64,000 nucleotides of DNA, taken from assembly GCA_963681505.1 (NCBI GenBank), contig OY811972.1, forward strand, positions 8,257,257 to 8,321,256, in the 5' to 3' direction. The notes under the pieces were generated by a model. It worked only from the letters and a program-made list of their open reading frames with translations. It was not told the origin of the DNA and did no database searches. This document shows, piece after piece, positions 10,661 through 43,726 of this stretch. Positions within the stretch are counted from its first letter, which is position 1. Each line of letters begins with the position of its first letter. Position numbers and translations under genes: made by a program. This DNA is from Eunapius fragilis. Its lineage: Eukaryota; Porifera; Demospongiae; Spongillida; Spongillidae.

Positions 10661-10923
10661 TCACATTCGCATTTTTGTAAGGACGCCCACCAGAGTAGAC
10701 CAGGTCACAGGCTTTACACCCATGCCCTGAAGCCATCGTTGGAGAATGGCCATGTTGATTCTCTCTGCATTCCGTTGGTGTTCCATCTCCAATGCTTGCA
10801 CAATGGCTCCATTGGTATCATTCAGTAGAAATATACCAAAATTTGAATACCTTACACCAACTTCTACAGCTACATTGACCTTCCTAGCAGACAAAGATAA
10901 TAGTTCTGGCATGGTGGGTGTTC
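10661..10923 (-). CDS. Terminal exon: Death domain
   Basis: The acceptor TTTGCCCCTCCTCCAG precedes the exon at 10,923. The exon continues the reading frame of the linker exon in phase 1, encodes 87 residues (the first codon split with the linker exon) and ends TGA. After an N-terminal SLSARKVNVAVEVGVRYSNF comes FLLNDTNGAIVQALEMEH, then INMAILQRWLQGMGVKPVTW and STLVGVLTKM. This is the six-helix Death-fold pattern, with the hallmark helix-5/6 run W-L-x(7)-TW-xx-L-xx-L. Its position at the C-terminus of a GTPase protein is as in DAPK1. The domain appears full length (about 80 residues). No truncation is seen. Confidence 0.75.
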
Positions 10924-10956
10924 CTGGAGGAGGGGCAAACCATAACCTATTCAATG

Positions 10957-11250
10957 ATTATACACAACATGTGGTCCTATACACTACATGTGGCCCTCTA
11001 TGCACAATATGTGGCCCCCTATACACAACATGTGGCCCCCTATACACTACATGTGGCCTCATATACACTACATGTGGCCCCCAATACACTACATGTGGCC
11101 CCCTATACATTGTACACTACATGTGGCCCCCTATACACTACATGTGGCCCCCTATACACAACATGTGGCCCCCTATACACAACATGTAGCCCCCTATACA
11201 CAACATGTGGCCCCCTATACACAACATGGGGCCCCCTATACACAACATGT
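10957..11250. repeat. 21-bp minisatellite in the last intron
   Basis: About 14 copies of a 21-bp unit (ATACACAACATGTGGCCCCC plus T), varying ACAACATG/ACTACATG. Because 21 is a multiple of three, several frames stay open and mimic a repetitive protein. It lies wholly within the intron between the linker and Death-domain exons. Confidence 0.85.
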
Positions 11251-11274
11251 ATACCAATCACTACAGCTACTAAC

Positions 11275-11352
11275 CTTCCAACTGTGGTACTATTTGGACC
11301 ACTAGCTCTGACAATAGCTGGGAAGAAGAGGAGGCAGCCATGGAAGTAGACA
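11275..11352 (-). CDS. Linker exon between GTPase/COR and Death domain
   Basis: Bounded by acceptor TCTCTTGTAG and donor GAAG|gttagt, 78 bp, entering and leaving in phase 1. It reads VSTSMAASSSSQLLSELVVQ and IVPQLE. It is a Ser-rich linker followed by an amphipathic helix leading into the Death domain. Phase compatibility with both neighbours is the main evidence. Confidence 0.65.
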
Positions 11353-11810
11353 CTACAAGAGAAAGGAAAGGTTACCCATCATGTAGCCACACCTTCTACA
11401 TGTAATACCTCAACAAAACAAAGGCAGACATGGCTATGTTCATCACATACATGTAAGATGTTTCCTACCACTACCATCAATAATATATCTCATCCTACTA
11501 GCAAATCATTATCGGGTTTAGGAACTAGGTCATGATTCACTATTATGGGCCAACATGTACTTGGGGTATGCATGTCGAGTTAGAATGAGAAACCTGTCAG
11601 AACAATGGCTGTGTATCTAGTTGTAGCAGCGGATGAATTGTTTCAATGAGGGGATGGTTCATATGTCATAACAGACTGGCTCTGAACATGGAATATGTAC
11701 ACTAAACTTCATCTACTACACTTATCTAAAATAAGATATATGCAAAAGGAGGAGGGAATTGTCATTACATATTTGTACAGATGAGGCCGGAGAGGCTCAA
11801 ATTAACATAC
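11353..11810 (-). other. Intron
   Basis: 458-bp intron between the GTPase exon donor (AATG|gtatgt) and the linker exon acceptor. AT-rich; no further element is recognised. Confidence 0.6.
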
Positions 11811-13867
11811 CATTTGAATATTTTCTTTCCTCTGCAATCCATACAGTGTGATTAGAGGTAAGGTCCATGTCGGTAGAACAGCTGGTACATGATGCCAGGT
11901 TAGGGTCACTATCATATGGTGTGGCCACACCTTTGCAAGATTTATTAGAACAGGCAAAGCCATCTTTGAGGAGCTTCAAACTATGATAACGGAGAACATC
12001 ACTACATTTTTTAATTCCATCATATATCAGCTTTCGTATTCTGGGACAGGCTGTGGGAACGTCTCGTGCAGAATCAAGGTGCACCTCTATGAATAATGAG
12101 GAATCAATAATGGTGAATTGGGCTGGAAACTTTCTACATTTGAAAGACACGCAGTTCCTATAAAGACAAACTAGTACTTTATTCACCTCTAAAACTGAAC
12201 ATTCTGTCTGAATGGAAGAAACTAAGCAACTGAACAATCCAAATGGAACAAGATCATTTTGGAGGTGCAATAGGAGAGGTTGTGCTGATGCATTATGTCG
12301 TCTGATGCTCTCAGGACTAAGAGGGTCCAAAAGAGCTGGCATCAAGTAGTCACCACCTTCCAATGGAACCATAATGAAGAGGTGGCACATGAGGGCAGTG
12401 AAATGCTCTACATTAAATACATCATCCAAAAAATGCTTCTCGAAGCGATTAACATAAAGAAAATCTGTGCTGACAATACCATGGTCCCTGAACTTAGAGC
12501 ACCATGCATTCTTTACACCAGCAATGCCCACCACTTCACCTCCAGCCAGCTCATGTTTACATTGGACTAGGTCTGAGATGATGTTTAGGATAACTTGGGG
12601 ATCACAGAACACTATGTTGCGAAGAGAGGGTACATTATGGTACCATAGCAACAGGTTATATTTGACCATGTGCAGGAGAGCTGCTTCTAGGGCTTGCTCA
12701 TCCATACCTAAGCTCCGTGCCAGCTGAAGACATCTATGAAGGCTGATAACACCTCTTACAGCTGTGTGCTTTATCTGCATCTCTAGACCAAACCACTTTA
12801 TAGGCAGGGAAGGAGTGGCGTCATCATTGCAGTGATCTACTATTGCATGCCTTAGCTCACCAGCTACCTTTTGGTCATAGGAATCAGGGTTTGCACCATT
12901 TATATCCCAGATTACGTCCACACCATTCTTGCATATCAGGTACTCTGAATTCACCATTTGCTTGATGACATCACCTTTTCCCCCCTTCGTCTCAGAACAC
13001 TTATCCTCCTCATCGCGGTGAGTTCCTACTATAAACAAATGAGGACGAAAATCTCTGGCATGTGCAGCTCTAACACACTGCTCCAACACCTGCTTGTGGG
13101 AAGATGGAGACTTGTACGGATTTCCTACTGGTTGACTGTCCTTTCCGTAGAAATAGATCATAGGGCAGTGGTTGAGACTGTCAGAAAGGTTTATAGCATA
13201 GAGAACAACAGAAACATCTTGAACAAAGACTGGTAAGAGCTCAAGAAACTGGGGCTGACCACCACTGTCAATGAACTGGACCAATCTAACGTTTAACACT
13301 TTCTTACTGCTTATGTTTTTGAATGCTTCTATGAATAGACTATCTACTTCTCCAGTAGCTGGGTTATCAAACACGTCATGGTCACTATGATGCCCTGCTT
13401 CCAATGGTTCTAGGGTAGATGGTTTAGGAGCTGTCTTAGCTGGTTGAGAACTTTTATTAGTGAGGTTCTCTGAAGCCATTGGAAGTGATGGAGGTTGAGG
13501 TATCTGGGTTTTTGTAGGTGTAGGCTTCAAATGGTATGCACTTGCAAGGACCTGCATCAGCTTAGCCTCATCAATAACCTCCCACCTACCTGGATCATTC
13601 TCATCCACACCTGCTAGTATGGACTTGACAGAGCCAACAAATGCCTGTACTGGGTTATCTGCCAGTCCTGTGCTAACACGACCGGTGGATTTATCATTAC
13701 CATCTGGTAGGAGGAGCCTCTTGAGGTGGGTCTTCCCCACACCTGCTATCCCAAGCACCAGGCATTTGATAATCGATATATTTACTGAACCTTCCTTCAT
13801 AGCTTCTTCATACAATTTTGCTGCCTCTGATAGAGATAGAAAATCATATTTACGCAAAAGCAACGCA
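11811..13867 (-). CDS. Large exon: P-loop GTPase (ROC-like) with COR-like C-terminal region
   Basis: About 685 codons, counted from the codon at 13,863. Residues 1-30 are a helix (EAAKLYEEAMKEG). Residues 31-45 carry the Walker A motif GIAGVGKT (38-45). Residues ~110-175 are a Pro/Ser-rich insert. Residues 190-230 carry the G3-type motif IDSGGQPQFLELLP (Asp199). Residues 270-285 carry a G4-like FIVGTHRDEED. From about 352 (LPIKWFGLEMQIKH) begins a winged-helix, COR-like region containing GVISLHRCLQLARSLGM and YNLLLWYHNV. The C-terminal 130 residues include a small Cys-rich patch (CSNKSCKGV...CTSC) that may bind zinc. GTP hydrolysis or nucleotide-gated oligomerisation is the expected activity. 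The donor at the 3' end leaves phase 1, matching the linker exon. The 5' acceptor CTTCAAG requires a phase-2 donor upstream. Confidence 0.8.
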
Positions 13868-14824
13868 CTTGAAGATCAATATTTCATCATCACTGCATGG
13901 GATTATGTGTCTCTTATCATCAGATCTTAAGTGTGTTTGGCCCAATAATACCTCACAGTTGCCACTTCATAAGGGTGGTAAGGGTTGTTACATTTTATGT
14001 ACTTCATATTACATCATCAATTAGAAAGTGCTCATTAAATTACCATATATTGCACAATAACTAGACACACTTAGAATATTTCAGGACATTTCAGTCTATT
14101 TGTTTTAAATATGAGGAAATAACCAGCCGCATGCCTGGGTTGATTGCTACTGAATGGAGCTTTTTATAATAGACATCCAGTCCTTGGTATATTGTAACAA
14201 CTGGCCCTATGCCCTGCTGGGAGAACCATTTCCATCATGTCACCATAATGCTTTGCTCAACTGCAATTGATATTTATGCATTACACAGCAAACCCATGGA
14301 TTGTTCATTATGCAACTCAATTTTTAAATATGAGATAATGTAGTTGCACCATCACTGGTACACTTAGTGGGATGAAATTTTAAAAATTTGAGCACAGTAT
14401 CATTAGCTACGTTTCATTAATTTTTATTGTTGCAATGATGACAACCAACCAGTGTGATGACCATCTCCCTACATGTGCATTCGTCATTGGGCTGGTGGGG
14501 TGGCTACAATTCTAACTGTTGTACATGATCCTCCCATCAAGTGTGAAATGGTACACTTCCCTCTAAATTTATTGTTACATTACCCAAACTAAGCAGAGTT
14601 ACAAACAAATAACTCAAAGGTAAAATACAAAGACAACTGGTCTGACCCATCAGAAGCCAACATATTTAGAGTCAGCTGAGTCACTTCTCAATGCAATTGA
14701 AAAAAGAAGTGTTTGCTATATGTACATGTACTGTACAAGTAACAGGACTACAGTGTACATATACATAAAACTAAGCTCCAATGCAATATACAGGTCTAAA
14801 CAACAGGTGACATGGACAACTCAC
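13868..14824 (-). other. Intron, possibly hiding a short exon
   Basis: The NHR exon leaves phase 1 whereas the GTPase exon needs phase 2, so a small exon of length 1 modulo 3 may lie here. I could not identify it by eye. Confidence 0.4.
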
Positions 14825-15107
14825 CAGCAAGCTGCTTTCTCTGCTGATCAAGAGCACTTTTATCAGCCATGACATAAAGGGAACTTCCCCCACTCCAAGG
14901 TGTCGGTGGTCTTAGGGATACCTTCACACACTGACCATACAGGTCCACCAAACCATACACACCCATGGGGACAGTGCAGGGAAGTGTGACCATGTGGGCA
15001 CCATTAATGAAGAGGTGCAAGGTACCAGAGTTTGTGTACAGCAGTCCAACTGTGTCCCCAACCTTTAGGTCATGGAAATTGATTTCATCAGGCAGTTGAT
15101 CCACTTC
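14825..15107 (-). CDS. NHR domain, third exon
   Basis: Acceptor ATATCACCAG, donor GCTG|gtgagt. It reads EVDQLPDEINFHDLKVGDTV, then GLLYTNSGTLHLFINGAHM and MGVYGLVDLYGQCVKVSL. The series VGDTVGLLY...GTLHLFING...VYGLVDLYGQC corresponds to the C-terminal beta strands of the Neuralized homology repeat (G-x-L-x-x-x-x-NG and the YG-VDLYG-C signature). After the domain comes a charged segment (DKSALDQQRKQLAG). The conserved Asn-Gly and Asp-Leu-Tyr-Gly residues are present. Confidence 0.85.
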
Positions 15108-15474
15108 CTGGTGATATTAATACATATGTAAGTGAACGTTACAGATACATTCCTGACGTACAGTAGAGGTGGTAAGAACTACGGAAGGTATGATAATTTT
15201 TAGAAACCTCTTATAATACTTTTTGTGATTTGTATAAACCTTTTTCATGTGTCTGAAATAGTGTATTGACATTGTAGCAGCATTAACTACAATTGTAGCC
15301 TAAACGGATGATGTAGCATTACATTGTAGCTAATGCTTGACTTCCACACAAGAATACATTAACTCATCAAATCCTCATGAACATTTGTATTCATGCTTAT
15401 ATAAATTCACACCATACAATACATACATGTAATGTACATACAAACACATGTACATGAACTAAACAGTGTCATAC

Positions 15475-15651
15475 CTGCCCTCCTGCATACAGAGCTAAGG
15501 ATGGTTTGCCATTAACTGATGATGTCACAATAAAACTTTGTCCCAACAACTGCTTTACATTGTCCACAGAAACCACCTGTGCTGTACTTTGTGTAGTGAC
15601 TCCAATGGACAGAGAGCCACTCCATTTGGAGTCCACCTCCATAATCTCCAC
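15475..15651 (-). CDS. NHR domain, second exon
   Basis: Bounded by acceptor CATCAATAG and donor GCAG|gtatga, phase 0 at both ends, 177 bp. It reads VEIMEVDSKWSGSLSIGVTT, then SVDNVKQLLGQSFIVTSSVN and LALYAGGQ. The W-S-G-S-L-S-I-G-V motif is the NHR core strand pair. The phase joins both neighbouring exons without a break. Confidence 0.85.
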
Positions 15652-15841
15652 CTATTGATGTGTAATCAGTATGCATTGTAAAATACCAATTGTATGAAAT
15701 ATGCACACACTTGCAGTGTTAGCAATTGCCAGAATTGCATGTATGCATCTGTACACATGATGTACTAGAAAGGCACCAACAGGATAAAATAAAGCCACAC
15801 AAAATCAGATACATGTATACTGTACCAACATATAAGATATT

Positions 15842-15859
15842 CCCCCCCCCCCCCCCCCC
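15842..15859. repeat. Homopolymer C18
   Basis: Eighteen consecutive C residues on the plus strand inside an NHR intron (G18 in the transcript sense). Potential i-motif/G-quadruplex and a likely site of length error. Confidence 0.9.
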
Positions 15860-16101
15860 TCACAAACCAAGAATAGTAAACATACATGTAGATGAGTGCA
15901 GATATATTTACACAAGCGAAATGAACATTGTAACATGTACAGTATAATTCAATGTCACCCCAAGGTCAATTGTATACCCGGGTGTGTAATCTAAAGCAGC
16001 CAAGATAACATGCACGAAAGTCACAACACTCACAACTGAGGCACCACATGTCAGTGAGGGACAACAGTATGTGGTGACAATGTCTAAACCTGTCATCTCA
16101 C

Positions 16102-16237
16102 CTGAAAGATGACATCACTAGGAAGAGGAGCAGAAGTAATCACAATGCCTCTTGAGTTGTTATTAAATCTGCAGGCCACTTGTCCTCCATGTTCAAGTCT
16201 GATATTGTCACCATGTGTGGAGGCAAATGTGACCAAC
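16102..16237 (-). CDS. NHR domain, first exon
   Basis: Acceptor CCCTCTCAATAG, donor TCAG|gtgaga, 136 bp. It reads LVTFASTHGDNIRLEHGGQV, then ACRFNNNSRGIVITSAPLPS and DVIFQ. THG-x-NI-x-L and GIVIT-x-x-PLP are the opening strands of the NHR (normally FH-x-x-x-G-x-NI-x-L and GIVFS-x-RPL). The 3' end is phase 0 and joins 15,651. The 5' end needs a phase-2 donor, which the last ankyrin exon does not provide. Confidence 0.8.
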
Positions 16238-16509
16238 CTATTGAGAGGGAATATTGGAGGGAAGAGAGAGGGGAGGAGATAGAGTGGAGTGTGAAGGATC
16301 ATGAATACATTTGGTGGTACAAATGTTTACTCTTTGTGTTCCACTGGCTGCTTTATCTGTTAACAGACAAATATACATTTCATAATGACATGTACTCCAG
16401 ACCAAACACATAAAAATCATATACCATGGAAGCACACATCTCCTAATTCAAAGGCAACAACAGTGCTCCTCCCCATACTTGTAGTATCCTGACCTCTTAT
16501 CAAGATTAC

Positions 16510-16750
16510 CTGTAGCTACCACCATTATGTTGGGCCACACAACTAGATGATCTCCAAAACTCTAACTCCCGCTGCACACCTCGGTTGATCTCTAAGTGCT
16601 CACACCATGCATGTCTGGACCACAGCAAGACATACAAACTCCTAGTCATAATCCTAGACATCGGCCCCAAAGCCAACCCCGTGGAAATAATCTTGCCAAC
16701 CAAAGTAGCAATAAACCGTGCATTCAGATGCGTGGCTACCCCAGTGATTA
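16510..16750 (-). pseudogene. DIRS-like retrotransposon fragment (RT / RNase H junction)
   Basis: The minus-strand frame reads VATHLNARFIATLVGKIIST, GLALGPMSRIMTRSLYVLLW and QRELEFWRSSSC. The L-GKIIS...ALGP...TR-LY...EL-FW series is typical of the connection between reverse transcriptase and RNase H in DIRS-type elements. It is cut at 16,750 by the fold-back insertion. It is the only DIRS piece here lying in the gene's own orientation. Confidence 0.65.
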
Positions 16751-17231
16751 CCCGGGTGAAAAAATACACGTAGTAACGCGTTATTACGCGTGAAAATGGG
16801 ACATAAATAACGCCAAAACACGCGATTTTCAAGATGATTATCTCCTTGATTGTGCAATACAATAGAGTTGAATTTTGCCTATACACAAAGCGGTCCAGTG
16901 TGTATAAAGTTCCAAAGACTGGTTGGTTTGGCATGCATCGTTCCGAAGATATTCACATTCAAGTACGAACTTGATTTCGCGGGAAAGTATACAAAAGCCC
17001 GCGAAATTAAGCTAGTACATTGAATGTGAATATCATCGGAGCGATGCATGCCAAACCAACCAGTCTTTGGAACTTTATACACACTGGACCGCTTTGTGTA
17101 TAGGCAAAATTCAACTCTTTTGTATTGCACAATCAAGGAGATATTCATCTTGAAAATCGCGTGTTTTGGCGTTATTTATGTCCCATTTTCACGCGTTATA
17201 ACGCGTTACTACGTGTATTTTTTCACCCGGG
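16751..17231. mobile_element. Fold-back element with CCCGGGTGAAAAAA termini, copy 1 (481 bp)
   Basis: Begins CCCGGGTGAAAAAATACACG and ends with the reverse complement TTTTTTCACCCGGG. The arms of about 210 bp are near perfect around a central 16,950-17,020 loop that itself holds GCGGGAAAGTATAC...CCCGCG. Flanked by TA/TA. Near identical to 21,539-21,996. ORFs on both strands of the arms are palindrome artefacts. Confidence 0.85.
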
Positions 17232-17872
17232 TATTGACAAAACTCAGATTTTAAAGCATATGATTTCAAAATGGATTTTCTTTTCTGATGTCTCTGAGTT
17301 TAAGCATAGCCAAATACATAATTAATATATATAAATTATACTGTTACAAACATACCATACAAATAACACACACACACTATAATTCAAGGACGAAGGCAGA
17401 CAAATCATGGGCCTGCAAAGTCTGAGCATTTTGCCTCATTAACTTAACCAACAAATGGCAATGTACAGCTCATGTAATGAAGTTAATGAAGGTTGACGGT
17501 TGTCTGCAGCAGACAACTAGTACTTTTCAGACTTCTTATTGAAATCAGTTATGTTAGACGTACATTACATGGAGGTCACAAGTGAGTCACACAAGCAAGT
17601 AATTACATGTAAACAAGGGTTATGCAAAAGCACCTCACAGTACAATGTGGTCAACAGTGATACAGTTATAGATGATACATGTTGGTCTGGCAAAATGTAC
17701 ATAGCAAATAATCAAGCATAGTTATGGAATTATGACTTATAAAAAAGGTTGATATTATAGGGATTATTTAACTTGACACATCTGACATATCTGAGTATCA
17801 AACATCACACCAGCACACACATAAGGTTGCTATGTACATATACATGTACATGCACACCTAACCTAACCTAAC
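17232..17872 (-). other. Intron
   Basis: Intron sequence between the last ankyrin exon and the NHR exons. Single-copy and AT-rich, apart from a short CTAACC repeat at 17,858-17,874 next to the donor. No gene on either strand is credible. Confidence 0.5.
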
Positions 17873-17953
17873 CTTGCTCCTGTTAAGCTTCAGTAGTTCA
17901 ATTATTTCCTTGTGACCCTTCTTCACTGCTATGTCCAGGGGTGTGCTCCCATC
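17873..17953 (-). CDS. Ankyrin exon 12 (C-terminal cap)
   Basis: 81 bp, phase 0/0, acceptor GGTCTTCAG, donor CAAG|gttagg. Reads DGSTPLDIAVKKGHKEIIEL then LKLNRSK. It has the TPL-x-x-A and GH-x-x-I-x-x-LL ankyrin core but is six codons shorter than the others, lacking the final GA-x-VN turn, as expected of a capping repeat. Confidence 0.85.
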
Positions 17954-21400: not shown

Positions 21401-21538
21401 GAGTCAACTTGTTTGTAACATGTACATTGCAATGACAACATTTAGAACTTACATTCTGAACACATGTACATGTGGCATAAAGTATAAAATAAGAGGTCAG
21501 TGATCTCCAATATGGGATAAAAACTTAACCCGGGTGAA

Positions 21539-21996
21539 AAAATACACGTAACGCGTTATAACGCGTGAAAATGGGACATAAATAACGCCAAAACACGCGA
21601 TTTTCAAGATGATTATCTCCTTGATTGTGCAATACAATAGAGTTGAATTTTGCCTATACAGAAAGCGGTCCAGTGTGTATAAAGTTCCAAAGACTGGTTG
21701 GTTTGGCATGCATCGTTCCGAAGATATTCACATTCAAGTACGAACTTGATTTCGCGGGAAAGTATACAAAAGCCCGCGAAATTAAGCTAGTACATTGAAT
21801 GTGAATATCATCGGAGCGATGCATGCCAAACCAACCAGTCTTTGGAACTTTATACACACTGGACCGCTTTGTGTATAGGCAAAATTCAACTCTATTGTAT
21901 TGCACAATCAAGGAGATAATCATCTTGAAAATCGCGTGTTTTGGCGTTATCTATGTCCCATTTTCACGCGTTACAACGTGCATTTTTTCACCCGGG
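21539..21996. mobile_element. Fold-back element with CCCGGGTGAAAAAA termini, copy 2 (458 bp)
   Basis: Same termini and arms as 16,751-17,231. Flanked by AA/AA. The flanks (GTGGGATAAAAAC ... CATGTTATTACATTG type) correspond to 37,360-37,400, where no element is present, so insertion followed duplication of the intron block. Confidence 0.85.
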
Positions 21997-22090: not shown

Positions 22091-22928
22091 GTATTGGTCT
22101 GTGTGCTGTGTACCATTCCAGCCTATTGGAGTATTGGTCTGTGTGCTGTGCACCATTCCAACCTATTGGAGTATTGGTCTGTGTGCTGTGTACCATTCCA
22201 GCCTATTGGAGTATTGGTCTGTGTGCTGTGTACCATTCCAGCCTATTGGAGTATTGGTCTGTGTGCTGTGTACCATTCCAGCCTATTGGAGTATTGGTCT
22301 GTGTGCTGTGTACCATTCCAGCCTATTGGAGTATTGGTCTGTGTGCTGTGTACCATTCCAGCCTATTGGAGTATTGGTCTGTGTGCTGTGTACCATTCCA
22401 GCCTATTGGAGTATTGGTCTGTGTGCTGTGTACCATTCCAGCCTATTGGAGTATTGGTCTGTGTGCTGTGTACCATTCCAGCCTATTGGAGTATTGGTCT
22501 GTGTGCTGTGCACCATTCCAACCTATTGGAGTATTGGTCTGTGTGCTGTGTACCATTCCAGCCTATTGGAGTATTGGTCTGTGTGCTGTGTACCATTCCA
22601 GCCTATTGGAGTATTGGTCTGTGTGCTGTGTACCATTCCAGCCTATTGGAGTATTGGTCTGTGTGCTGTGTACCATTCCAGCCTATTGGAGTATTGGTCT
22701 GTGTGCTGTGTACCATTCCAGCCTATTGGAGTATTGGTCTGTGTGCTGTGTACCATTCCAGCCTATTGGAGTATTGGTCTGTGTGCTGTGTACCATTCCA
22801 GCCTATTGGAGTATTGGTCTGTGTGCTGTGTACCATTCCAGCCTATTGGAGTATTGGTCTGTGTGCTGTGTACCATTTCAGCCTATTGGAGTATTGGTCT
22901 GTGTGCTGTGTACCATTCCAGCCTATTG
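22091..22928. repeat. 40-bp minisatellite, array 1 (about 21 copies)
   Basis: The unit is 40 bp (GTATTGGTCTGTGTGCTGTG followed by TACCATTCCAGCCTATTGGA). Copies differ by only a few point changes (CACCATTCCAACC at two places). Forty is not divisible by three and the unit has no forward stop, so all three plus frames stay open for about 290 codons. These are not genes. Lies in the intron between ankyrin exons 9 and 10. Confidence 0.95.
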
Positions 22929-26163: not shown

Positions 26164-26653
26164 CTGGTAAGGAGAGAAGGAACAAAGGCATCAAAGATGC
26201 ACATAAGAAGGGAGAACAGTTTGAAAGTGAATATGAAGAAGTGAAGTGAATGAGAGAAGTACAGAGGGAGAAGGTGCATGTTGGGAGGGTGTAGAAATGA
26301 CAACATCACCAGATCAATTTGTATATGATGTTTTGCAACATGTTTACTGTACAGGCTGGTACACATGGTATGTGGTATTAGGGTAAGGACTGAGGTCACG
26401 GGCCTTGACCCACCACAGTGAGTAGGGTAATTAATAATATTCTACATCTCAAGTGCCAGCTGAGGGGAAGGGATGTACATGTACATACCATTAGACCATC
26501 CATCCATACATATCGACCTACATATACAATCTATCCAAATGTTGTCCTGACATGGTGATTCGGTAAAATGGAATGCGGGGACAGGGATTAAAGAGATGGA
26601 GCAATGTTTTTTATTACTATGTATTAGATGCTCTTGAATGTGCGGGTAATGGA

Positions 26654-27034
26654 GTATTGGTCTGTGTGCTGTGTACCATTCCAGCCTATTGGAGTATTGG
26701 TCTGTGTGCTGTGTACCATTCCAGCCTATTGGAGTATTGGTCTGTGTGCTGTGTGCCATTCCAGCCAATTGGAGTATTGGTCTGTGTGCTGTGTACCATT
26801 CCAGCCTATTGGAGTATTGGTCTGTGTGCTGTGTACCATTCCAGCCTATTGGAGTATTGGTCTGTGTACTGTGAACCATTCCAGCCTATTGGAGTATTGG
26901 TCTGTGTGCTGTGTACCATTCCAGCCTATTTGAGTATTGGTCTGTGTGCTGTGTACCATTCCAGCCTATTGGAGTATTGGTCTGTGTGCTGTGTACCATT
27001 CCAGCCTATTGGAGTATTGGTCTGTGTGCTGTGT
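26654..27034. repeat. 40-bp minisatellite, array 2 (about 9.5 copies)
   Basis: Same unit as array 1, with extra variants (CCAGCCAATTGG, CTGTGAACC, TTTGAGTATT). Lies in the intron between ankyrin exons 7 and 8. Left flank ATGCTCTTGAATGTGCGGGT is shared with array 3, showing that the arrays are paralogues of one locus. Confidence 0.95.
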
Positions 27035-27545: not shown

Positions 27546-28098
27546 TCAATGTAAATTACCAGTTACTAGGGTGAGGTTCAGTCTCTGGTAGATGCTTGAA
27601 ATGGCTTTTGACTTGCTGCACTGCAACTGCAAAGCCAGACGGGCAGCCAGTCTAGAAATGGAACCCTGAGCTTCCGCACTCCAACAACCATACGTCTCTA
27701 CTGCCAAGGGTATGCAGACCCAACCCAACTCTGTGCATTTGGCGTCATTGGCATTGTGCTTGCGCACTTCAGCCTTTCCAGCTGCTAACCCACTTCTGGC
27801 TCCCGCTTCATTCAATGTAATGGAGTTAAGTGGAGAGACCACTGTTAGGTCAAAAGCAGCTTGCTTCCCAATCATCCAGTTGGGCACTAGGATGTCTGCC
27901 GGCCTACTGAGCGAACTTTCACCCCCATACCCATGACCTACCTCAAGCTGACCACCCAGCCTTGCCCTGTGACAAAACTGGGCAAAAACATCTCTTAAGC
28001 TGTTGTGGCTCAACACCACATCACCACCCCCTTTGCACGTCACAGCATGATGCCCAAGAGGATCCAGCTGGTGGTCAGGGTAGTAAGGGCAACATAGC
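27546..28098 (-). pseudogene. LINE 1: zinc-binding tail and restriction-like endonuclease
   Basis: Downstream half of a minus-strand LINE split by a hAT element. Reads CCPYYPDHQLDPLGHHAVTC (C-x2-C-type zinc tail, partly in the frame before 28,043), then GGGDVVLSHNSLRDVFAQFC, SRPADILVPNWMIGKQAAFD and ELGWVCIPLAVETYGCWSAE. The nuclease has the same motif order as 5,317-5,852. The frame is open to the stop near 27,546. The LINE probably runs 31,110 to ~27,560 in total. Confidence 0.8.
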
Positions 28099-28099
28099 T

Positions 28100-29416
28100 C
28101 AGGCGCTGATCCAGGATTATAGGAGGGGGGGTGGCTAGAGGGTAGGGGCCAGCAATCCTCAGCAAGGGGGTCGGGGGGAGCGTTGTAAGCTCCCCCAGCG
28201 GGGTCTGGGGCTCTGCCCCAGACGCCAACGCTAGTTTTTTTACTTCATCCCGCTCAAAACGCTACACAAAACTACTGTAAAAAAAAAAGAAATTATATCA
28301 CAAACTAAGCCTTATACCTTGCATGTACTATACGGGGGATTTATCGTCAAAAACCCAGTGAATCATTATCTCGCCCTTTCTGGCAAAAGAGCTTCTTGAA
28401 CCTATACGCCCAATTGCTGAATGCTTACAAGGAAGACTGCAGGAAATGTACTTAGGTTTCAAGAAGATAACTGAAATCATGAAGCATTACAAAACATTCA
28501 GGGAAAATGTACACACTGACCACAATAGAATATATGGTAAAGCAGTGCTTTTGAGCACAGAAATAGGTAGTGAAGATGAAGAAGGAATGCCTCGAGTAAT
28601 AAGAGGACGGCAGGCGAGACCAAATCCAGAAGTTGCTTCTGCATGTGATTATTGGCGTGTTACAATCACTATTCCCTTTTTGGATTCTATTATAAGTGAA
28701 ATGGAAAGTAGATTTGCTGAAGACAAAAGGGCACATTTTGAACTTTGTGCACTCATACCTGAGGTTATCAGAGAACAAGATGTGCAAGCAACATGTAACA
28801 TTTTGAGTTCAAAGTGGAAACATCTGTTACCTGAAGAAGGCAACTTTGGGGGTGAGCTCGCCAGATGGAAAGTTCATTGTAATGGTATTTTTGGAGAAAG
28901 AAGTATTACGGAACTACTCTGCCAGGATGCTGATCCAATATTCTTTCCCAATATTTCATGGTTTGATTTTCCACTATCGGTGACCAAATATGCCAAACAT
29001 TTACACAAATGCACCATAGAAAGTTGTGTAGTGAATCAGTGTTGAATGAATAAATCACAACATTCATATGATGTTTTTGTGTAAATGATTGACATATTTG
29101 GTAACTTAGTATTATCATGCAGTTTAAAGATGTGCACTGGCAACTATATGCTTACATTGATTTTTCTTTTGTGCTATGTACTAGTCACAATTATTATACA
29201 TGTATCAAAATAAACATCTGATCACACAAAAAAACAAACAAAGCATCATCATCTTTTTTTCACCCCTAAATTGAAGCTGTTGAACAGAAGTATAATGCTA
29301 TTAGCCCTCAAACAGAAATTCCTGATAGTTCTCAATCAGTATTTTAGTAAATAATTATTTGAGGAAGGGGGGGGGGTGGCTAGCCACCCTATCCACCCTC
29401 TCTGGATCAGCCCCTG
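28100..29416 (+). mobile_element. hAT-type transposon with 5-bp target duplication (TAGCT), inserted in LINE 1
   Basis: Ends are CAGGCGCTGATCCAGG at the left and the inverted CTCTGGATCAGCCCCTG at the right. Flanks are TAGCT on both sides (28,095-28,099 and 29,417-29,421). Removing the element and one TAGCT rejoins the LINE coding frame without a shift (GMDTSSQL into CCPYYPDHQL). The subterminal sequence has a second inverted stretch GGGGGGTGGCTAG/CTAGCCACC. Length 1,317 bp is too short for a full hAT gene. Confidence 0.9.
28362..29045 (+). pseudogene. hAT transposase fragment (ZMYM/THAP-associated type), internal region
   Basis: 228 codons are open from 28,362 (no ATG at the very start; the first ATG is at 28,446). 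It reads AKELLEPIRPIAECLQGRLQ, then ACDYWRVTITIPFLDSIISE and MESRF, then DADPIFFPNISWFD. YWR-x-x-x-x-IPFLD...ME-RF is typical of the middle part of ZMYM1-like hAT transposases. The N-terminal DNA-binding and catalytic Asp region and the C-terminal dimerisation domain are missing, so this copy cannot be autonomous. Confidence 0.75.
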
Positions 29417-29421
29417 TAGCT

Positions 29422-31110
29422 GTGATGATGTGTCCATCCCAAGCCAACATTTTAAAGCAACCTGGAACTTGTCTGGATCCAAGCTAAGATTAATACCTCT
29501 TGATGGAATTACGGCTAGCCATGAGGAAGCATGACACGATGCAACTGAAAGAAGACGAGCACGGTTGGTCGGGGTGGAGATGAGGCACAGCTGGTCAAAT
29601 TGATGGTCATCAATTCTGGATGATAAGTCTTTTTGACTTGAACAGGGCTCCAGAAGAGACTCTTCAGAGATGGAATTTGCAGGTGGAACCAAGCTATTGA
29701 ACAAGGTGACAGCTTGTAAGGCGAACTCATCCAGTGGAGCTGAATAACCTGCTTTGTTTACTGAGGCCAGATAAACAGCCGAGCAATGTAAAGCCAACCT
29801 ACGGAGGCCTAGACCACCCCTGCTGAGGCTCAGCTGAACTTGAAGCCACTCAGAGTCAGAGGGATCAATTGCAACAGTGTCACAAAAGTGACGACGAACC
29901 TCCGCATCAAACAATGATGCTAGGCCTTCTGACACAAGGGCAGGTGGAGTGGAGCGAGCTAAATGGACCAGCTTACAAAAGGTGGCACAATGACGTAAGA
30001 GAAGGAGTGCAATTTGAGGATCCACTGAACCCACCTCTGACATCTATTGACCGCCTTGGCTCGCTTTTGAGCGAGGAACTTGGCACAAAATATTGCATCC
30101 CCAATAGGAGCACCCAGGATCTCAAAGTTAGGCTCATGAAACACCTTTATGTCCGCTGGAAAGTCCTCCATGGCCCCTCGAGAAAAGAGTTCAGAAAGTC
30201 CTCCATGGCCCCTCGAGAAAAGAGTTCACACTTGGCCATATTGATATATAGCCCCAAGGAGGGACCAAACTGCTGAATTAGGTGGATAGCATGTTTCACT
30301 GCATCCTTGGGACCTGCCAGAGTACCGTCATCAAGGTACCACATATTAAACAAAAGTTCGGAACATTCACTGTCTGCCGCAATGGACCGGACAAGCTTAT
30401 GCAGAAATAGAGAGAACAGGAGAGGACCCAAAGGATCCCCCTGCTGAACTCCCCGCTCTGACCCAAGAGTACCCGTGGAGTGCCACAGGGTGGGATGCTG
30501 CCCATAGTACCAAAAAACCCACCAGAAAAGTTCTGTGAAATGGGTTGCACACTCCTCTAGGAGGGCTTTTCGTGAAACCTCATTGAATGCATTCCTCAGG
30601 TCTACCTTACATGCCACAAAATCATCATCCTCCCAGTGATCCCTAATACACTGGCACAGACCATGTACCAACTTTTCCGCTCCTGCTGGACGAGCCACGC
30701 CAAGCTGAAATGGGCCAAAAAACTCAGAAGCCTAGACTCTAGCCATGGTACAGAGACAATTTCCCGTTAAGTCTTCTAAGAGCCTCTCCAACAGCAATCG
30801 GGCATACGTCCTGTGGAGACCCCTCTTCATTTTTAATCAAGGCTGTGAGTGAGCCACCACCTAGATACATGTACTTGGCTACCTTGGCTGGAGCTCTACC
30901 TCCTGCTAGGATGTTTACCACAGCCCTGAGTGATGCACAGATGGGGGTTGCCAGGTGGACTTCGGCAGCGTCAATGAGGTGCTGTATTCGCAGACCTGAG
31001 GGGCCACTAGCACTATCTCTAGGAAATTGATGAAGGACCGACAAGTCTGGGGGCAACGTGAAACCTTCTGATGGTAATGTGACTTCCGGACTTGATGGAA
31101 CTGGATCCTT
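29422..31110 (-). pseudogene. LINE 1: reverse transcriptase (frameshifted)
   Basis: In transcription order: LHQFPRDSASGPSGLRIQHL (from 31,056), CPIAVGEALRRL, then RT core VDLRNAFNEVSRKALLEECA, SERGVQQGDPLGPLLFSLFL, and catalytic box MWYLDDG (30,330-30,350). Thumb and C-terminal part (VQLSLSRGGLGLRRLALHCS, HASSWLAVIPSRGI) lie at 29,430-30,040. The YLDD box is intact. The frame is broken by a 35-bp tandem duplication at 30,160-30,229 and by another break near 30,700-30,740. The 5' end is truncated. Confidence 0.85.
30160..30229. repeat. 35-bp tandem duplication inside the LINE RT
   Basis: AAAGTCCTCCATGGCCCCTC ... occurs twice, offset by 35 bp (30,160 and 30,195). Because 35 is not a multiple of 3 it shifts the RT reading frame, explaining why the downstream half is in another frame. 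Confidence 0.9.
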
Positions 31111-31135
31111 GGGATGCTTCTATAATTACATGTAT

Positions 31136-31192
31136 ATCAATCATGATGGCCCTTCTCACTTGCCACAAGAAGTGCAGTTGAATTGCTCTGGT
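31136..31192 (-). pseudogene. Ankyrin exon 6 relic (102-bp type, truncated)
   Basis: Reads SNSTALLVASEKGHHD and then meets a TGA. The second half of the repeat is gone and LINE 1 begins within about 30 bp. The acceptor-side sequence (ATTACCAG) is still recognisable. The relic is most simply explained by the LINE insertion and associated deletion. Confidence 0.7.
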
Positions 31193-32580: not shown

Positions 32581-32699
32581 TATTACTACAATATGAATTG
32601 ATTGCACACAAATGAATTCTGGCATTTGACATATAACTTCCATGGTTGACATAACCCACCCATGCCCAGTTGCCTACCCACCCATCATAAATAAATCCC

Positions 32700-35833: not shown

Positions 35834-35879
35834 CTGGTAAGGAGAGAAAGAACAAAGGCATCACAGGTTTACATGTACA

Positions 35880-37666: not shown

Positions 37667-37768
37667 ATTAGATCTTGCTATATTCACTCCAGCACCAGCT
37701 CCCAACAAGGTCTGTACTACATCATGATGACCGTTCTCACTTGCCACATACAGTGGAGTTGTATTGAT
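37667..37768 (-). CDS. Ankyrin exon 3 (102-bp type)
   Basis: Phase 0/0. Reads INTTPLYVASENGHHDVVQT then LLGAGAGVNIARSN, donor TAAT|gtaagt. Paired with 40,396 as a module; the module is nearly identical to 26,062-27,530. Confidence 0.88.
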
Positions 37769-38258
37769 CTGGTAAGGAGAGAAGGAACAAAGGCATCAAA
37801 GATGCACATAAGAAGGGAGAACAGTTTGAAAGTGAATATGAAGAAGTGAAGTGAATGAGAGAAGTACAGAGGGAGAAGGTGCATGTTGGGAGGGTGTAGA
37901 AATGACAACATCACCAGATCAATTTGTATATGATGTTTTGCAACATGTTTACTGTACAGGTTGGTACACATGGTATGTGGTATTAGGGTAAGGACTGAGG
38001 TCACGGGCCTTGACCCACCATAGTGAGTAGGGTAATTAATAATATTCTACATCTGAAGTGCCAGCTGAGGGGAAGGGATGTACATGTACATACCATTAGA
38101 CCATCCATCCATACATATCGACCTACATATACAATCTATCCAAATGTTGTCCTGACATGGTGATTCGGTAAAATGGAATGCGGGGACAGGGATTAAAGAG
38201 ATGGAGCAATGTTTTTTATTACTATGTATTAGATGCTCTTGAATGTGCGGGTAATGGA

Positions 38259-39736
38259 GTATTGGTCTGTGTGCTGTGTACCATTCCAGCCTATTGGAGT
38301 ATTGGTCTGTGTGCTGTGTACCATTCCAGCCTATTGGAGTATTGGTCTGTGTGCTGTGTACCATTCCAGCCTATTGGAATATTGGTCTGTGTGCTGTGTG
38401 CCATTCCAGCCTATTGGAGTATTGGTCTGTGTGCTGTGTACCATTCCAGCCTATTGGAGTATTGGTCTGTGTGCTGTGTGCCATTCCAGCCTATTGGAGT
38501 ATTGGTCTGTGTGCTGTGTACCATTCCAGCCTATTGGAGTATTGGTCTGTGTGCTGTGTACCATTCCAGCCTATTGGAGTATTGGTCTGTGTGCTGTGTG
38601 CCATTCCAGCCTATTGGAGTATTGGTATGTGTGCTGTGTACCATTCCAGCCTATTGGAGTATTGGTCTGTGTGCTGTGTACCATTCCAGCCTATTGGAGT
38701 ATTGGTCTGTGTGCTGTGTACCATTCCAGCCTATTGGAGTATTGGTCTGTGTGCTGTGTACCATTCCAGCCTATTGGAGTATTGGTCTGTGTGCTGTGTA
38801 CCATTCCAGCCTATTGGAGTATTGGTCTGTGTGCTGTGTGCCATTCCAGCCTATTGGAGTATTGGTCTGTGTGCTGTGTACCATTCCAGCCTATTGGAGT
38901 AGTGGTCTGTGTGCTGTGTACCATTCCAGCCTATTGGAGTATTGGTCTGTGTGCTGTGTACCATTCCAGCCTATTGGAGTATTGGTCTGTGTGCTGTGTA
39001 CCATTCCAGCCTATTGGAGTAGTGGTCTGTGTGCTGTGTACCATTCCAGCCTATTGGAGTATTGGTCTGTGTACTGTGTACCATTCCAGCCTATTGGAGT
39101 ATTGGTCTGTGTGCTGTGTACCATTCCAGCCTATTGGAGTATTGGTCTGTGTGCTGTGTACCATTCCAGCCTATTGGAGTATTGGTCTGTGTGCTGTGTA
39201 CCATTCCAGCCTATTGGAGTATTGGTCTGTGTGCTGTGTACCATTCCAGCCTATTGGAGTATTGGTCTGTGTGCTGTGTACCATTCCAGCCTATTGGAGT
39301 ATTGGTCTGTGTGATGAGTACCATTCCAGCCTATTGGAGTATTGGTCTGTGTGCTATGTACCATTCCAGCCTATTGGAGTGTTGGTCTGTGTGCTGTGTA
39401 CCATTCCAGCCTATTGGAGTATTGGTCTGTGTGCTGTGTACCATTCCAGCCTATTGGAGTATTGGTCTGTGTGCTGTGTACCATTCCAGCCTATTGGAGT
39501 ATTGGTCTGTGTGCTATGTACCATTCCAGCCTATTGGAGTATTGGTCTGTGTGCTGTGTACCATTCCAGCCTATTGGAGTATTGGTCTGTGTGCTATGTA
39601 CCATTCCAGCCTATTGGAGTATTGGTCTGTGTGCTGTGTACCATTCCAGCCTATTGGAGTATTGGTCTGTGTGCTGTGTACCATTCCAGCCTATTGGAGT
39701 ATTGGTCTGTGTGCTGTGTACCATTCCAGCCTATTG
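38259..39736. repeat. 40-bp minisatellite, array 3 (about 37 copies)
   Basis: The longest array, with variant units (TGTGCCATTCC, GGAGTAGTGG, GTGTGATGAG, GTGCTATGTA) scattered through it. It ends at CTATTGTGTCTTATTAAGATGG as in arrays 1 and 2. All three plus frames are open (up to 504 codons) for the reason given for array 1. Confidence 0.95.
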
Positions 39737-39970
39737 TGTCTTATTAAGATGGCGTGCACAGGTGAGGCTACACCAATGGTGATGTGATAAGGAACTGTGA
39801 GGATACCATGTAAGGCATGTGGAGGGAGTATACAGCTTCTATGCTGCATGATCATTTCACCATGTCACTTCATTCATATGGTCAAGCTACATGTATATCC
39901 TAATCCCAGCGGTCATGGAAGCTAATAAAAAGTGATGCAGCCAATGAATAATAAACGATGCAGCCGCAGT

Positions 39971-40016
39971 TAGGGAGAAGGGAGGGGGGAGGGGGAGGGG
40001 GGAGGGGGAGGGGGAT
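39971..40016 (+). repeat. G-rich quadruplex-prone tract, longer paralogue
   Basis: Repeats of GGGGGA/GGGGGGA over about 45 bp. Corresponds to the shorter tract at 23,159, so the tract length has changed since duplication. Confidence 0.75.
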
Positions 40017-40395
40017 GTTCCCACATTGGGGTATGAGATTTAGCCCCAGAACAATCTATTTCCCTATACAGATGGTTTTGGTCATTGTACCACCACTCAA
40101 CAACATCATTCATCACCTCCATATGCTCATCTGACTTTGGACATTTCATTGGTATAGAAATTACATTTTGAACACATGTACATGTGGCATAAAGTATAAA
40201 ATAAGAGACCACTGATGTGCAATGTGGGATAAAAATATCAGCCACTAAGAAGGCACATGGTTATGTAACTGTAAATGCTATATTATGATTTTTACATGTT
40301 GTAACTTCCCCGAAACGTTTTATTCTAAATCATGTTAAAGTACAAGTACATGCTGACCACTTCATTGTAAATGGAGCAGATCATTTCATACCAAC

Positions 40396-40494
40396 CTTAT
40401 TAGTCTGATTGATATCAGCTCCTGCTTCAATGAGTTTCTTTACTACTTCAAGGTGTCCATTGAAACTTGCTGTCCACAATGGACTCCGACCGTC
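40396..40494 (-). CDS. Ankyrin exon 2 (99-bp type)
   Basis: Phase 0/0, acceptor TTGTATTAG, donor TAAG|gttggt. Reads DGRSPLWTASFNGHLEVVKK then LIEAGADINQTNK. Full canonical repeat. Confidence 0.9.
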
Positions 40495-41019
40495 CTAATA
40501 CAAGAGTGATCAATATAAATTACCAGTCCGTTGTGTTTTACAAGTAATAGTTGTGCAAGTACATCTACGTACATCTACACACAGTTCAATTTAAGTCCTA
40601 ACAAATGATTACGCATGCTACAGTTCATAATGTGTGCAGATAGTGGACCGTCTCCTCTGTTGACTGACCTGGTTAGTCAGCTGAAGTAAATTTGCCAAAC
40701 AATGTCTGGCTGACACAACTAAATGCATAAATTCATTAACTAAGTCAAATTGATATGTACATGTGTACATGTAAATTGAACAAATTGTGTTGTTAAGTGG
40801 TCTAAGTGGGGTTTGTGGTATATTAGGAAGCTCTTGCCATGGATACTATGCAATGCACTAAGAGATCTTACTTGCATGTGGCATTTGTGGCTGGCATAGA
40901 CTATCAAAGAAACACTTGAGGTATAAATAAACCTCAGTGTTGATAGCTGTTGTATGATAGTTATGTAACACACTTACCACCACTTAGTAATATAAGCCGA
41001 GTTAAAAAATAAATATGGC

Positions 41020-41310
41020 TCTTTGTGTACACAAGAGCATGGCAAAGTGTTTTGGGCAAAAGGTGGGCAGTGATTGTGTAAATAAGGGGGGTGGGGGGTG
41101 GGGGGGATCAGCTACACAAGACTTAGGGAGTTGCTACTAGAGAAGACAGAACAGTTGGGTATGGACCCAAGTGTATTTGGCATGCATAGTCTGTGGGCAG
41201 GTGGTACCACTGCTGCAGTGAGGGCTGGTGTGGTCCATCACTTATTCAAGAGGCATGGCCACTAGAGGTCACTATCTGCCAAGGATGGTTATGTAAAGGA
41301 TGCACTGGAA
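41020..41310 (+). pseudogene. DIRS-like recombinase tail G
   Basis: Carries VYTRAWQSVLGKRW-type shifted leader, then SELLLEKTEQLGMDPSVFGM, HSLWAGGTTAAVRAGVVHHL and the same TAG after RHGH as in remnants E and F. Truncated on the left. Confidence 0.7.
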
Positions 41311-41399
41311 ACTCGTTTGTAACATGTACATTGCAATGACAACATTGAACATTTAGAAATTACATTTTGAACATATGAACATGTGGCATAAAGTATAAA

Positions 41400-41560
41400 A
41401 TAAGAGGTTGAACAAAGGCATCACAGATGCACATAAGAAGGGAGAACATTTTGAAAGTGAAAATGAAGAAGAGAAGTGAATGAGAGATGTACAGAGGGAG
41501 AAGGTGCATGTTGGGAGGGTGTAGAAATGACAACATCACCAGATCAGCATTATATGTGGC
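41400..41560 (-). repeat. Ankyrin intron block lacking its exon
   Basis: GAACAAAGGCATCACAGATG through GGGTGTAGAAATGACAACAT matches the intron that lies next to every 102-bp exon (for example 33,238-33,365), but here the exon side is replaced by sequence like 21,480. It marks a lost exon copy. Confidence 0.6.
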
Positions 41561-41640
41561 AATAGTACATGTAGTTCAATATTCGGTAACTATGCCTGTT
41601 GTTATGGGGTATTTCAATTTTACTTATTACGTGGCGCACA

Positions 41641-41673
41641 TACACACACACACACATACACACACACAAATGC
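41641..41673. repeat. (CA)n microsatellite
   Basis: Interrupted CA/CACATA run of about 32 bp in the intron between ankyrin exons 1 and 2. Confidence 0.85.
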
Positions 41674-42212
41674 ACAACAGGTCTGCATTTAGAATGTGGA
41701 GTGTTTTTCCACTCTCATTATGAAGGTAGGGCTGCAAACACAGTTACAGTATCCAGTATAGAGGAGTCACATTTAATCTGGTATAAAGGACTTTAATTAA
41801 TTAGTTAATTAGTTATGCTTTATCAAATATGCCATATTAGACAGCTCACCCTCCATGGTAGTTTTCAACCACTGGTTTACATAATAAGTAGTCTCCCCCT
41901 AACCCTATTTTAGTCAAGGTAAAAGCTGATCTTAAAGTATGCTGGAAAACAAGACTGAAGAATATATGTACATTGTACATGTAATCTGATGTAAATAGGA
42001 AACTCTATTTCTAACTAATATTGTAAACCTTCTTTTAAGATTGTGTCAACAGTCAATGGATGATCAATGAATATCTATACCACATGACATTGACAACCTG
42101 CATGCATACGTTGTACATTGCACATAACATTACATCATTTCTAAGGTGAACAAATTTAAAGTGGTCAAGGATATGCAGACCACTAAATGGAGCAGATCAT
42201 TTCATAACCAAC

Positions 42213-42311
42213 CTTATTAGCCTGATTGACATCAGCTTCTGCTTCAATGAGTATCTTTACTTCATCAAGGCGTCCATTAAAACTTGCTATCAACAATAGA
42301 CTCTGACCTCC
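42213..42311 (-). CDS. Ankyrin exon 1 (99-bp type, divergent)
   Basis: Phase 0/0, acceptor CTATTAG, donor TAAG|gttggt. Reads GGQSLLLIASFNGRLDEVKI then LIEAEADVNQANK. It lacks TPL (has SLL) and has Arg for His in the GH motif, as often seen in an N-terminal cap repeat. Confidence 0.85.
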
Positions 42312-43433
42312 CTAATAGAAGTGATGTATTTGTACCTACAGTAATTACTACAAGATGTCCACTGTGTATACATGATATGCACAACTCATTTATTTCCATA
42401 TGCATAATGGAAACTGTTGACGTTACTCTATAGTGGTTTTTATTTCTCACAAATCACATAGGTACTAGTACATGTATGCTGATTTTTAATATACCAACAA
42501 ATCACAAGTACATTTAATAAATACAGAAATGATATTAAAATCATTTCTGTTTACACTATTATACTTTCTCCCTCTTATCATTTATCTTTCATTACTAATT
42601 TTCATGTAGCCAATTCATGATGATCCAATGTATTCATTTTTAGTCCTTCATTTGTGTGTACAAAAGGTTTTCATAAAAAATCATTTGACCAATCACAAAG
42701 GAGGAATGATCAATCAAGGTGATTTCCCATAATGAATCATATGAAAATTCTAACATTTATACATGTGCAATTGGAAGTGATTTCTTTGTTATATTAAGAA
42801 ATCCTATTTAAATGACTTGTCAGTGATTCAAATTACATAAATGTACTAGGCACCTGTATACTAGGCACCTGATAATGTTGAGCTTGGCCATTATTTTTGT
42901 AATGGCCCAATGTCTCAATTCACTCATCATCAGGTGAAGGCTTCGACTACACTCCACAATTGTATTGTCAAATGAGCACATTAGATATCGACCATGCAGG
43001 CACTCAGCGGCATAGCTATTCCCTACAGAAACAAGTTTTATATACGAAACTGATCAATTTGTTTTTGCGCGTGGTTAATGAGGAGGTTTTTGAGATTAAA
43101 AATATAACCACACAAAAGAAGAAAACTTGAACAGGTCCATTCCACATGGTAATCATCAAATGAATGCACATACATGTAGACCAGCTCAGGTTTTTAAACT
43201 CAACCACCTATTTTTAGAACGTCACACAAGTGATGAAAACATGATGACGATTTAAACGGATGAAGCTAAAAGGCATACAGAGACCTTGAAGGTAACCAGA
43301 TAAATATATAAATTAATATGTCGTGACCGCATTAAAGGTGTTATCCAGCCTAATAATGGCAGGCCGAGACAGCAAGTGATCCATTTCCTACTCTATAATC
43401 TATGATAGTGCAGAACATAACGAGTGCCTATAC
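42312..43433 (-). other. Intron
   Basis: AT-rich, mostly single-copy. Contains the tandem phrase CTAGGCACCTG (42,847 and 42,862). No repeat family from elsewhere in the window and no extra ankyrin exon are seen. Confidence 0.5.
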
Positions 43434-43499
43434 CTCAATAGTTCTGTTCATGTCATCACTCTTGGAGGGTGCTCTTGTATCCGTTGGTTGGGCTTGCGT
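43434..43499 (-). CDS. N-terminal exon, second of two duplicated 66-bp exons
   Basis: Acceptor CTACGAAG, donor TGAG|gtatag, phase 0/0, 22 codons. Reads TQAQPTDTRAPSKSDDMNRT then IE. Ser/Asp-rich and probably disordered. The sister exon at 43,577 is about 85 percent identical. Confidence 0.6.
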
Positions 43500-43576
43500 C
43501 TTCGTAGTTGGTGGAATGAGTGTGAGTTAATACATGCATTATCAGATAATAGATGCAATTTGTAACGCAAAGCTAC

Positions 43577-43642
43577 CTTAATAGTTCTGTTTACGTCATC
43601 ACTCTTGGAGGGCGCTCTTGTATCCTTTGGTTTGGCTTGCTC
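43577..43642 (-). CDS. N-terminal exon, first of two duplicated 66-bp exons
   Basis: Acceptor GCACTGTTAAG, donor TAAG|gtagct, phase 0/0, 22 codons. Reads EQAKPKDTRAPSKSDDVNRT then IK. Tandem exon duplication of this kind suggests either inclusion of both or mutually exclusive splicing. Confidence 0.6.
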
Positions 43643-43717
43643 CTTAACAGTGCATGGGTGCGGTAAGTGGATCGATGTGGTATTAGTAATAGATGATAAA
43701 CATCTATAGTCGCATAC

Positions 43718-43726
43718 CTGTCCCAT
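43718..43726 (-). CDS. Putative start exon (MGQ)
   Basis: ATGGGACAG|gtatgc gives Met-Gly-Gln and a phase-0 donor that fits the next exon. MG at the start could allow N-myristoylation, but the following context is weak. Another ATG 5 bp upstream would give an incompatible phase. Confidence 0.45.

Follow-up and report, generated by a model that had tools for sequence, protein, structure and literature searches.

A probable single gene in a sponge joining an exon-built ankyrin array, an NHR domain, a Roc/COR-like exon and a Death-like C terminus

ROCO proteins fall into three groups, of which the DAPK1 group is marked by a Death domain and has a kinase in front (PMC6337361). The anemone protein NG3 combines a kinase, SH3, Roc/COR, Death, and TIR, and in TIR_2 proteins of the centipede Strigamia maritima and the oyster Crassostrea gigas, described as otherwise NG3-like, a "neuralized" domain replaces the kinase and SH3 (PMC5094078). 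The labels NHR, ROC, COR, Death, and TIR also appear together in the legend of Fig. 6 of PMC9334734, for a set of Aplysia TIR/COR proteins. Brown algal LRR-ROCO genes encode one LRR per exon and undergo exon shuffling (PMC11378527), and in fungal NLRs of high internal conservation (het-d/het-e) the repeats are nearly identical and have contact sites that are hypervariable (PMC12222747). Here we describe a locus of the sponge Eunapius fragilis. It lies within a window of 64,000 nucleotides (assembly GCA_963681505.1, contig OY811972.1, positions 8,257,257 to 8,321,256), where the minus strand between 43.7 and 10.6 kb carries, in order, 11 intact single-repeat ankyrin exons and a broken one, three NHR exons, a Roc/COR-like exon, a linker exon, and a Death-like exon (Table 1). 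This multi-domain animal locus is real, and it is probably one gene.

In DAPK1, the ankyrin repeats are placed ahead of Roc-COR, and the sponge locus, if the model is indeed one gene, has ankyrin, Roc/COR-like, and Death-like parts in the same order. It differs from the DAPK1 group in that no kinase is present and an NHR domain stands between the ankyrin repeats and Roc; because the kinase is absent, we do not file the gene as a DAPK. Pfam scans of the stop-masked minus strand covering 0.7-64 kb, which domains split into small exons could escape, recognized neither a kinase nor a TIR domain, and NACHT and NB-ARC were likewise absent from these scans and from the spliced model. An earlier note on this DNA had drawn the comparison with DAPK1, stated the missing kinase, and given the order ankyrin, NHR, COR, all of which hold: the order is supported by profiles on one strand at the coordinates the note gave. 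Its further statement that no described family has this arrangement is not supported in that form, since the Neuralized NG3-like proteins and the Aplysia set speak against it. The Strigamia and Crassostrea proteins share with our locus a Neuralized domain in a protein resembling NG3, which itself has Roc/COR and Death, although retention of Roc/COR is only implied by the wording of the source. They carry TIR_2, and the text describing them names no ankyrin array; the comparison is by description only. The Aplysia set shares the NHR, ROC, COR, and Death labels, with the caveat that the legend does not reveal which protein bears the NHR; unlike the sponge product, these are TIR proteins, some of them with LRR. 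The order is thus not wholly new, and its core has already been glimpsed in other invertebrates. No protein with ankyrin, NHR, Roc-COR, and Death together is described among the open-literature matches listed, which consist mostly of titles and the beginnings of abstracts, and none appears in the extracts of two sponge papers (PMC12909245 and PMC6208332).

What does look new is the ankyrin array itself, which is near-identical, built with one repeat per exon in phase 0-0, and biased in its type B changes toward ligand-contact positions. Pfam Ank matches the spliced model with an E value of 2.9e-78 in 11 stretches, and the exons run in the order A A B B B A B A B B C. Type A exons comprise 33 codons (99 bp) and type B exons 34 codons (102 bp), and every exon of either type is in phase 0 at both ends. 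Because the frame survives when such a single-repeat exon is duplicated, lost, or skipped, the recognition surface could evolve fast. A broken B-type exon lies near 31.2 kb; its loss would leave the frame intact because the ankyrin exons are phase 0-0. Its second part was not found by a DNA search, a weak negative given that the same search also missed the first part, and this exon is excluded from every repeat count. Matches to DUF1902 (E 0.0016) and DUF2278 (E 0.043) fall within the ankyrin part and were set aside.

The array shows a history of block duplication. Three blocks each consist of an A exon, a 40-bp minisatellite, and a B exon. The minisatellite has an internal identity of ≈97-98%, is confined to the A-B gaps of all three blocks, and may promote unequal exchange; its core is matched 52 times across the window, always on the plus strand and always in 1-kb bins where the three arrays lie. 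The B exons are 89-98% identical to one another, and the longest aligned stretch, between B1 and B4, extends over 1,080 bp at 96.4%. Judged by the alignment identities, the B exon is more alike than its enclosing aligned stretch in 11 of 15 pairs and less alike in the other four, and the 11 pairs therefore indicate some constraint. Across the six B repeats, eight of 34 residues vary, and five of these eight fall on the seven positions that we take, after the design of DARPins (designed ankyrin proteins), to be contact positions (P 0.0035). A 44-bp piece at 41410-41453, 97.7% like the sequence just upstream of B3, has no B exon following it and suggests the trace of a lost repeat.

The NHR domain is also supported by profiles. 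Its three exons score 35.0, 22.8, and 37.2 bits singly and 111.9 bits once spliced; the splicing is self-checking, because the spliced score exceeds that of any single exon and the profile match becomes continuous. Taken alone, the NHR product matches Pfam Neuralized with an E value of 3.3e-32, and within the full model the E value is 1.1e-30. Two NHR structures in the Protein Data Bank (PDB) are matched by sequence as well, 2e63 at E 2e-12 and another at E 1.3e-7. Non-bilaterian animals have Neuralized domains without the RING of true Neuralized (PMC2770060), and the Neuralized repeat is counted among SPRY-like domains that are coupled in eukaryotes to NACHT NTPases or Death-superfamily domains (PMC8195603).

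For the GTPase with a COR-like part, as it had been called, there are motif-like strings and a COR-A match, and both the Roc and the COR-A profile matches stay under the Pfam cut-offs. The Roc part contains strings that we presume to be G1, G3, and G4, and COR-A is matched over the whole profile at E 4.5e-6 in the exon (27.1 bits, where the cut-off is 35.3) and 1.3e-5 in the spliced model. A PDB sequence search gave no match for the COR part. A generic AAA_16 match (E 0.18) lies on the P-loop; it was set aside along with DUF1344, YniB, and DUF6419, the four ranging from E 0.08 to 0.18.

For the terminal exon, we built a custom Death profile from ten Death-domain sequences, all ten of which Pfam recognized as Death. 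This profile ranks the ORF of the exon first among 2,787 six-frame open reading frames (ORFs) of at least 15 residues, with an E value of 0.03, and the next-best unrelated ORF has an E value of 0.28. Of 5,000 shuffles made, 4,375 were scored, and none of these reached the real score, by a small margin (best 10.8 against 10.9). The exon scores 6.7-12.8 bits, well below the 19.0-60.7 bits of known Death domains when each in turn is withheld from the profile. Alignment by hhalign gives P 0.0038 (0.22-0.91 for five shuffles), yet a probability of only 3.6. The match spans the presumed helices H3-H5, and H6 seems to be missing from the exon.

Joined together, these exons give a spliced model of 1,395 residues whose sole stop is the terminal one at 10661, with a proposed ATG at 43726. 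All 19 junctions keep the frame open (18 GT-AG, one GC-AG); the exon ends were picked by us, and the open frame counts as support, short of proof. From NHR exon 1 to the stop, five GT-AG junctions leave the frame open throughout. Codon usage was scored with a measure trained on the Roc/COR exon and compared with random windows. Seven of seven ankyrin exons tested, of the 11 present, fall in the top 1.5%; NHR exon 3 is clear (1.3%), the linker modest (4.7%), and NHR exon 1 (14%), NHR exon 2 (12%), and the Death-like exon (6.5%) are weak. At the 5' end, exon N2 falls within the top 1.7% and N3 at 10.6%, which is not distinctive. The first exon ATGGGACAG and the pair of 66-nt exons that follow, the first of which is EQAKPKDTRAPSKSDDVNRTIK, are plausible but weak.

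Table 1. Coordinates of the features of the locus, as window positions, in the direction of the minus strand
Feature	Position	Strand	Remarks
Proposed first exon, ATGGGACAG (M-G-Q)	43718-43726	-	ATG; GT donor gtatgc, phase 0; weak, without profile
Proposed 66-nt exon N2, EQAKPKDTRAPSKSDDVNRTIK	43577-43642	-	Phase 0-0; acceptor weak; resembles N3
Proposed 66-nt exon N3	43434-43499	-	Phase 0-0; acceptor weak; resembles N2
Ankyrin A1, 33 aa	42213-42311	-	
Ankyrin A2, 33 aa	40396-40494	-	
40-bp minisatellite, 37 copies	38255-39736		Intron A2-B1
Ankyrin B1, 34 aa	37667-37768	-	
Ankyrin B2, 34 aa	35732-35833	-	
Ankyrin B3, 34 aa	33119-33220	-	
Broken B-type ankyrin exon	31140-31181	-	Omitted from model; first part of repeat, then unrelated sequence with stop
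Ankyrin A3, 33 aa	27432-27530	-	
40-bp minisatellite, 9.6 copies	26650-27034		Between A3 and B4
Ankyrin B4, 34 aa	26062-26163	-	GC donor (gcaagt)
Ankyrin A4, 33 aa	24002-24100	-	
40-bp minisatellite, 21 copies	22091-22928		Between A4 and B5
Ankyrin B5, 34 aa	20533-20634	-	
Ankyrin B6, 34 aa	18697-18798	-	
Last ankyrin exon, C	17868-17953	-	Shorter; donor ambiguous in GTTAG repeat, or read-through to stop 17860; Pfam Ank E 1e-4
NHR exon 1	16102-16237	-	Profile 1-44; Neuralized E 1.6e-8
NHR exon 2	15475-15651	-	Profile 44-85; Neuralized E 9.1e-5, just under cut-off
NHR exon 3, with linker	14825-15107	-	Profile 95-147; Neuralized E 3.4e-9
Roc/COR-like exon, 2,016 nt	11811-13826	-	COR-A E 4.5e-6; Roc E 0.2
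Presumed G1, GIAGVGKTH	13726-13752	-	String in Roc part
Presumed G3, DSGGQ	13255-13269	-	String in Roc part
Presumed G4, THRD	13009-13026	-	String in Roc part
COR-A	about 12328-12804	-	
Cysteine cluster	11875-11958	-	
Linker exon	11275-11352	-	Phase 1-1
Death-like terminal exon with stop codon	10661-10923	-	No Pfam match; its ORF is the top hit of the custom Death profile

Taken together, the locus would be one animal gene for an intracellular sensor of ROCO type, with an ankyrin recognition array, a Roc switch tuned by the NHR domain, and a Death-fold output, a reading to which we give about even chances. Several results count against it. The claim that all four parts belong to one gene is partly borne out, in order, strand, and coordinates, and is left short by an ambiguous ankyrin-NHR junction and by a Death part without a Pfam match. 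Exon C can be joined to NHR exon 1 in frame through the second GTTAG donor, and this is one of more than one in-frame solution; alternatives pass through an extra exon, either one of 26 nt found by eye or any of 80 candidates from a loosely defined search. Exon C also reads on in frame to its stop, and the frame of NHR exon 1 is open upstream to an ATG of its own at 16302. One gene could therefore end and another begin in this gap, which also contains a palindromic repeat and which a single gene would bridge by way of the second GTTAG donor or of an additional exon. The locus could instead be two genes, one with the ankyrin array that stops in or close to exon C and another with the NHR, Roc/COR, and Death parts that starts at ≈16.3 kb. 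The palindromic repeat, ≈480 bp long (16750-17231), matches its second copy (21528-21996) in both orientations, as a small mobile element might. We regard two genes as rather unlikely: a pyrimidine-rich, acceptor-like stretch ending in AG directly precedes NHR exon 1, an in-frame junction does exist, and the division would leave the ankyrin repeats alone, with no other domain found for them in the minus-strand scans.

The quality of the individual parts bears on two other explanations. The pooled pN/pS is 0.95 for the B repeats and 0.77 for the A repeats, near-neutral values that relaxed constraint would give likewise; diversifying selection on the ankyrin repeats is not proved by them. The A repeats are without contact-site bias (P 0.32 for all four, 0.15 for A2-A4). 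A real gene now decaying, as a pseudogene or weakly used paralogue with drifting ankyrin exons, would fit the pN/pS values, the four B pairs in which the exon is less alike than its surroundings, the broken B exon, the single GC donor, and introns that hold repeats and a reverse transcriptase piece. This is unlikely in view of the 11 B pairs in which the exon is the more alike, of the contact-site bias of the B repeats, and of the absence of stops from the 2,016-nt Roc/COR exon and the other exons of the model. It is also doubtful, on present evidence, that the product works as a ROCO scaffold in the cytoskeleton or in trafficking, in the manner of LRRK2 or DAPK1, rather than as an immune sensor, with C-terminal helices that are not Death. 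This explanation would account for the want of any Death match in Pfam, and LRRK2 and NEURL4 do meet in endosomal Notch-ligand traffic (PMC4565672). Against the sensor reading itself, a PDB sequence search gave no Death match, single known Death domains match the exon at E 1.2 or worse, no convincing candidate for a further terminal exon encoding helix 6 was found downstream, and the Roc match is below threshold. Structure prediction did not help: single-sequence AlphaFold models of the Death-like and Roc/COR exons were too poor (pLDDT 57.3 and 37.4). The C-terminal Death domain failed the Pfam profile match, an outcome that the earlier note had named as one that would speak against it, although the custom profile, which places the ORF first of 2,787, favors it. 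The repeatedly duplicated blocks of the ankyrin array would also be out of keeping with a fixed scaffold.

The sole other domain accepted as real in the minus-strand scans is a reverse transcriptase, with RVT_1 matches near 30.5 kb (E 8.3e-16) and 49.5 kb (E 1.3e-17). Reverse transcriptase-like ORF pieces lie at 27546-31119, 44089-44691, 46592-47293, 48570-49928, and 5319-5852, those beyond the two RVT_1 matches being judged by eye. FlhF_N (E 1.2e-7, at the cut-off, in the best scan and weaker in others) and DUF6066 fall in the 40-bp minisatellite arrays and were set aside. The TRADD-N receptors of Amphimedon (PMC8195603) were considered, and Pfam lists no TRADD-N here. With the Roc/COR exon and NHR product as queries, viral and prokaryote contigs, where an animal gene is not expected, yielded no relative; the DNA pattern of the B exons had no match in viral contigs, PADLOC gave no hit with either the Roc/COR or the Death-like exon, and neither RNA families at gathering score nor tRNA were found. 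A 54-bp tandem array of ≈35 copies occupies 60012-61865, and a plus-strand ORF at 6390-6863, rich in charged residues, contains two 45-bp tandem arrays. Five stretches near the window ends, in 1-4427 and 50232-54792, are mutual direct repeats of 85-93% identity, perhaps a long mobile element or a segmental copy.

For the single sensor gene, a way of working can be proposed. The ankyrin array would bind a protein ligand, the neighboring NHR domain would contact the Roc GTPase and restrain or tune it, Roc-COR would act as a nucleotide-dependent dimer switch, and the C-terminal Death-like helices would recruit a partner by Death-fold contact, leading to a cell-death or inflammatory output. We infer the NHR-Roc contact in cis from LRRK2 and NEURL4, whose binding in trans needs ROC (and partly WD40) and maps to the NEURL4 region with NHR3-4; as reported, RG (in ROC) and TN (impaired GTP binding) mutants stabilize it, whereas GS and RL do not (PMC4565672). 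There, ROC and NHR join two proteins in one complex; in the sponge, they would lie in one chain.

Among the described systems, the brown algal LRR-ROCO genes (PMC11378527) likewise place one recognition repeat per exon, in uniform phase, before Roc-COR; they use LRR in 72-bp phase 2 exons, unlike the ankyrin exons of 99 or 102 bp in phase 0 found here together with NHR and a Death-like exon. The fungal NLRs het-d/het-e share the near-identical repeats and differ by their WD40 and by having no Roc-COR or NHR as described (PMC12222747). More speculatively, interchangeable exons of one repeat each may make up the array, through duplication and perhaps also through combinatorial splicing, with the NHR domain gating Roc in cis, a combination that we hold to be rather improbable. 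With the same low confidence, such a receptor might be viewed as the animal equivalent of the LRR-ROCO genes in brown algae, and as the NEURL4-LRRK2 contact naturally fused into one chain. If true, the locus would represent an animal receptor that alters its binding surface by the gain, loss, or skipping of whole exons, and it would test whether exon-built recognition before ROCO switches arose more than once. With NHR and Roc linked in one chain, the LRRK2-NEURL4 contact could also be tested as a switch within a single molecule. Overall, the build of this probable sponge gene, as read from its DNA, suggests an intracellular sensor that could easily be re-tuned.

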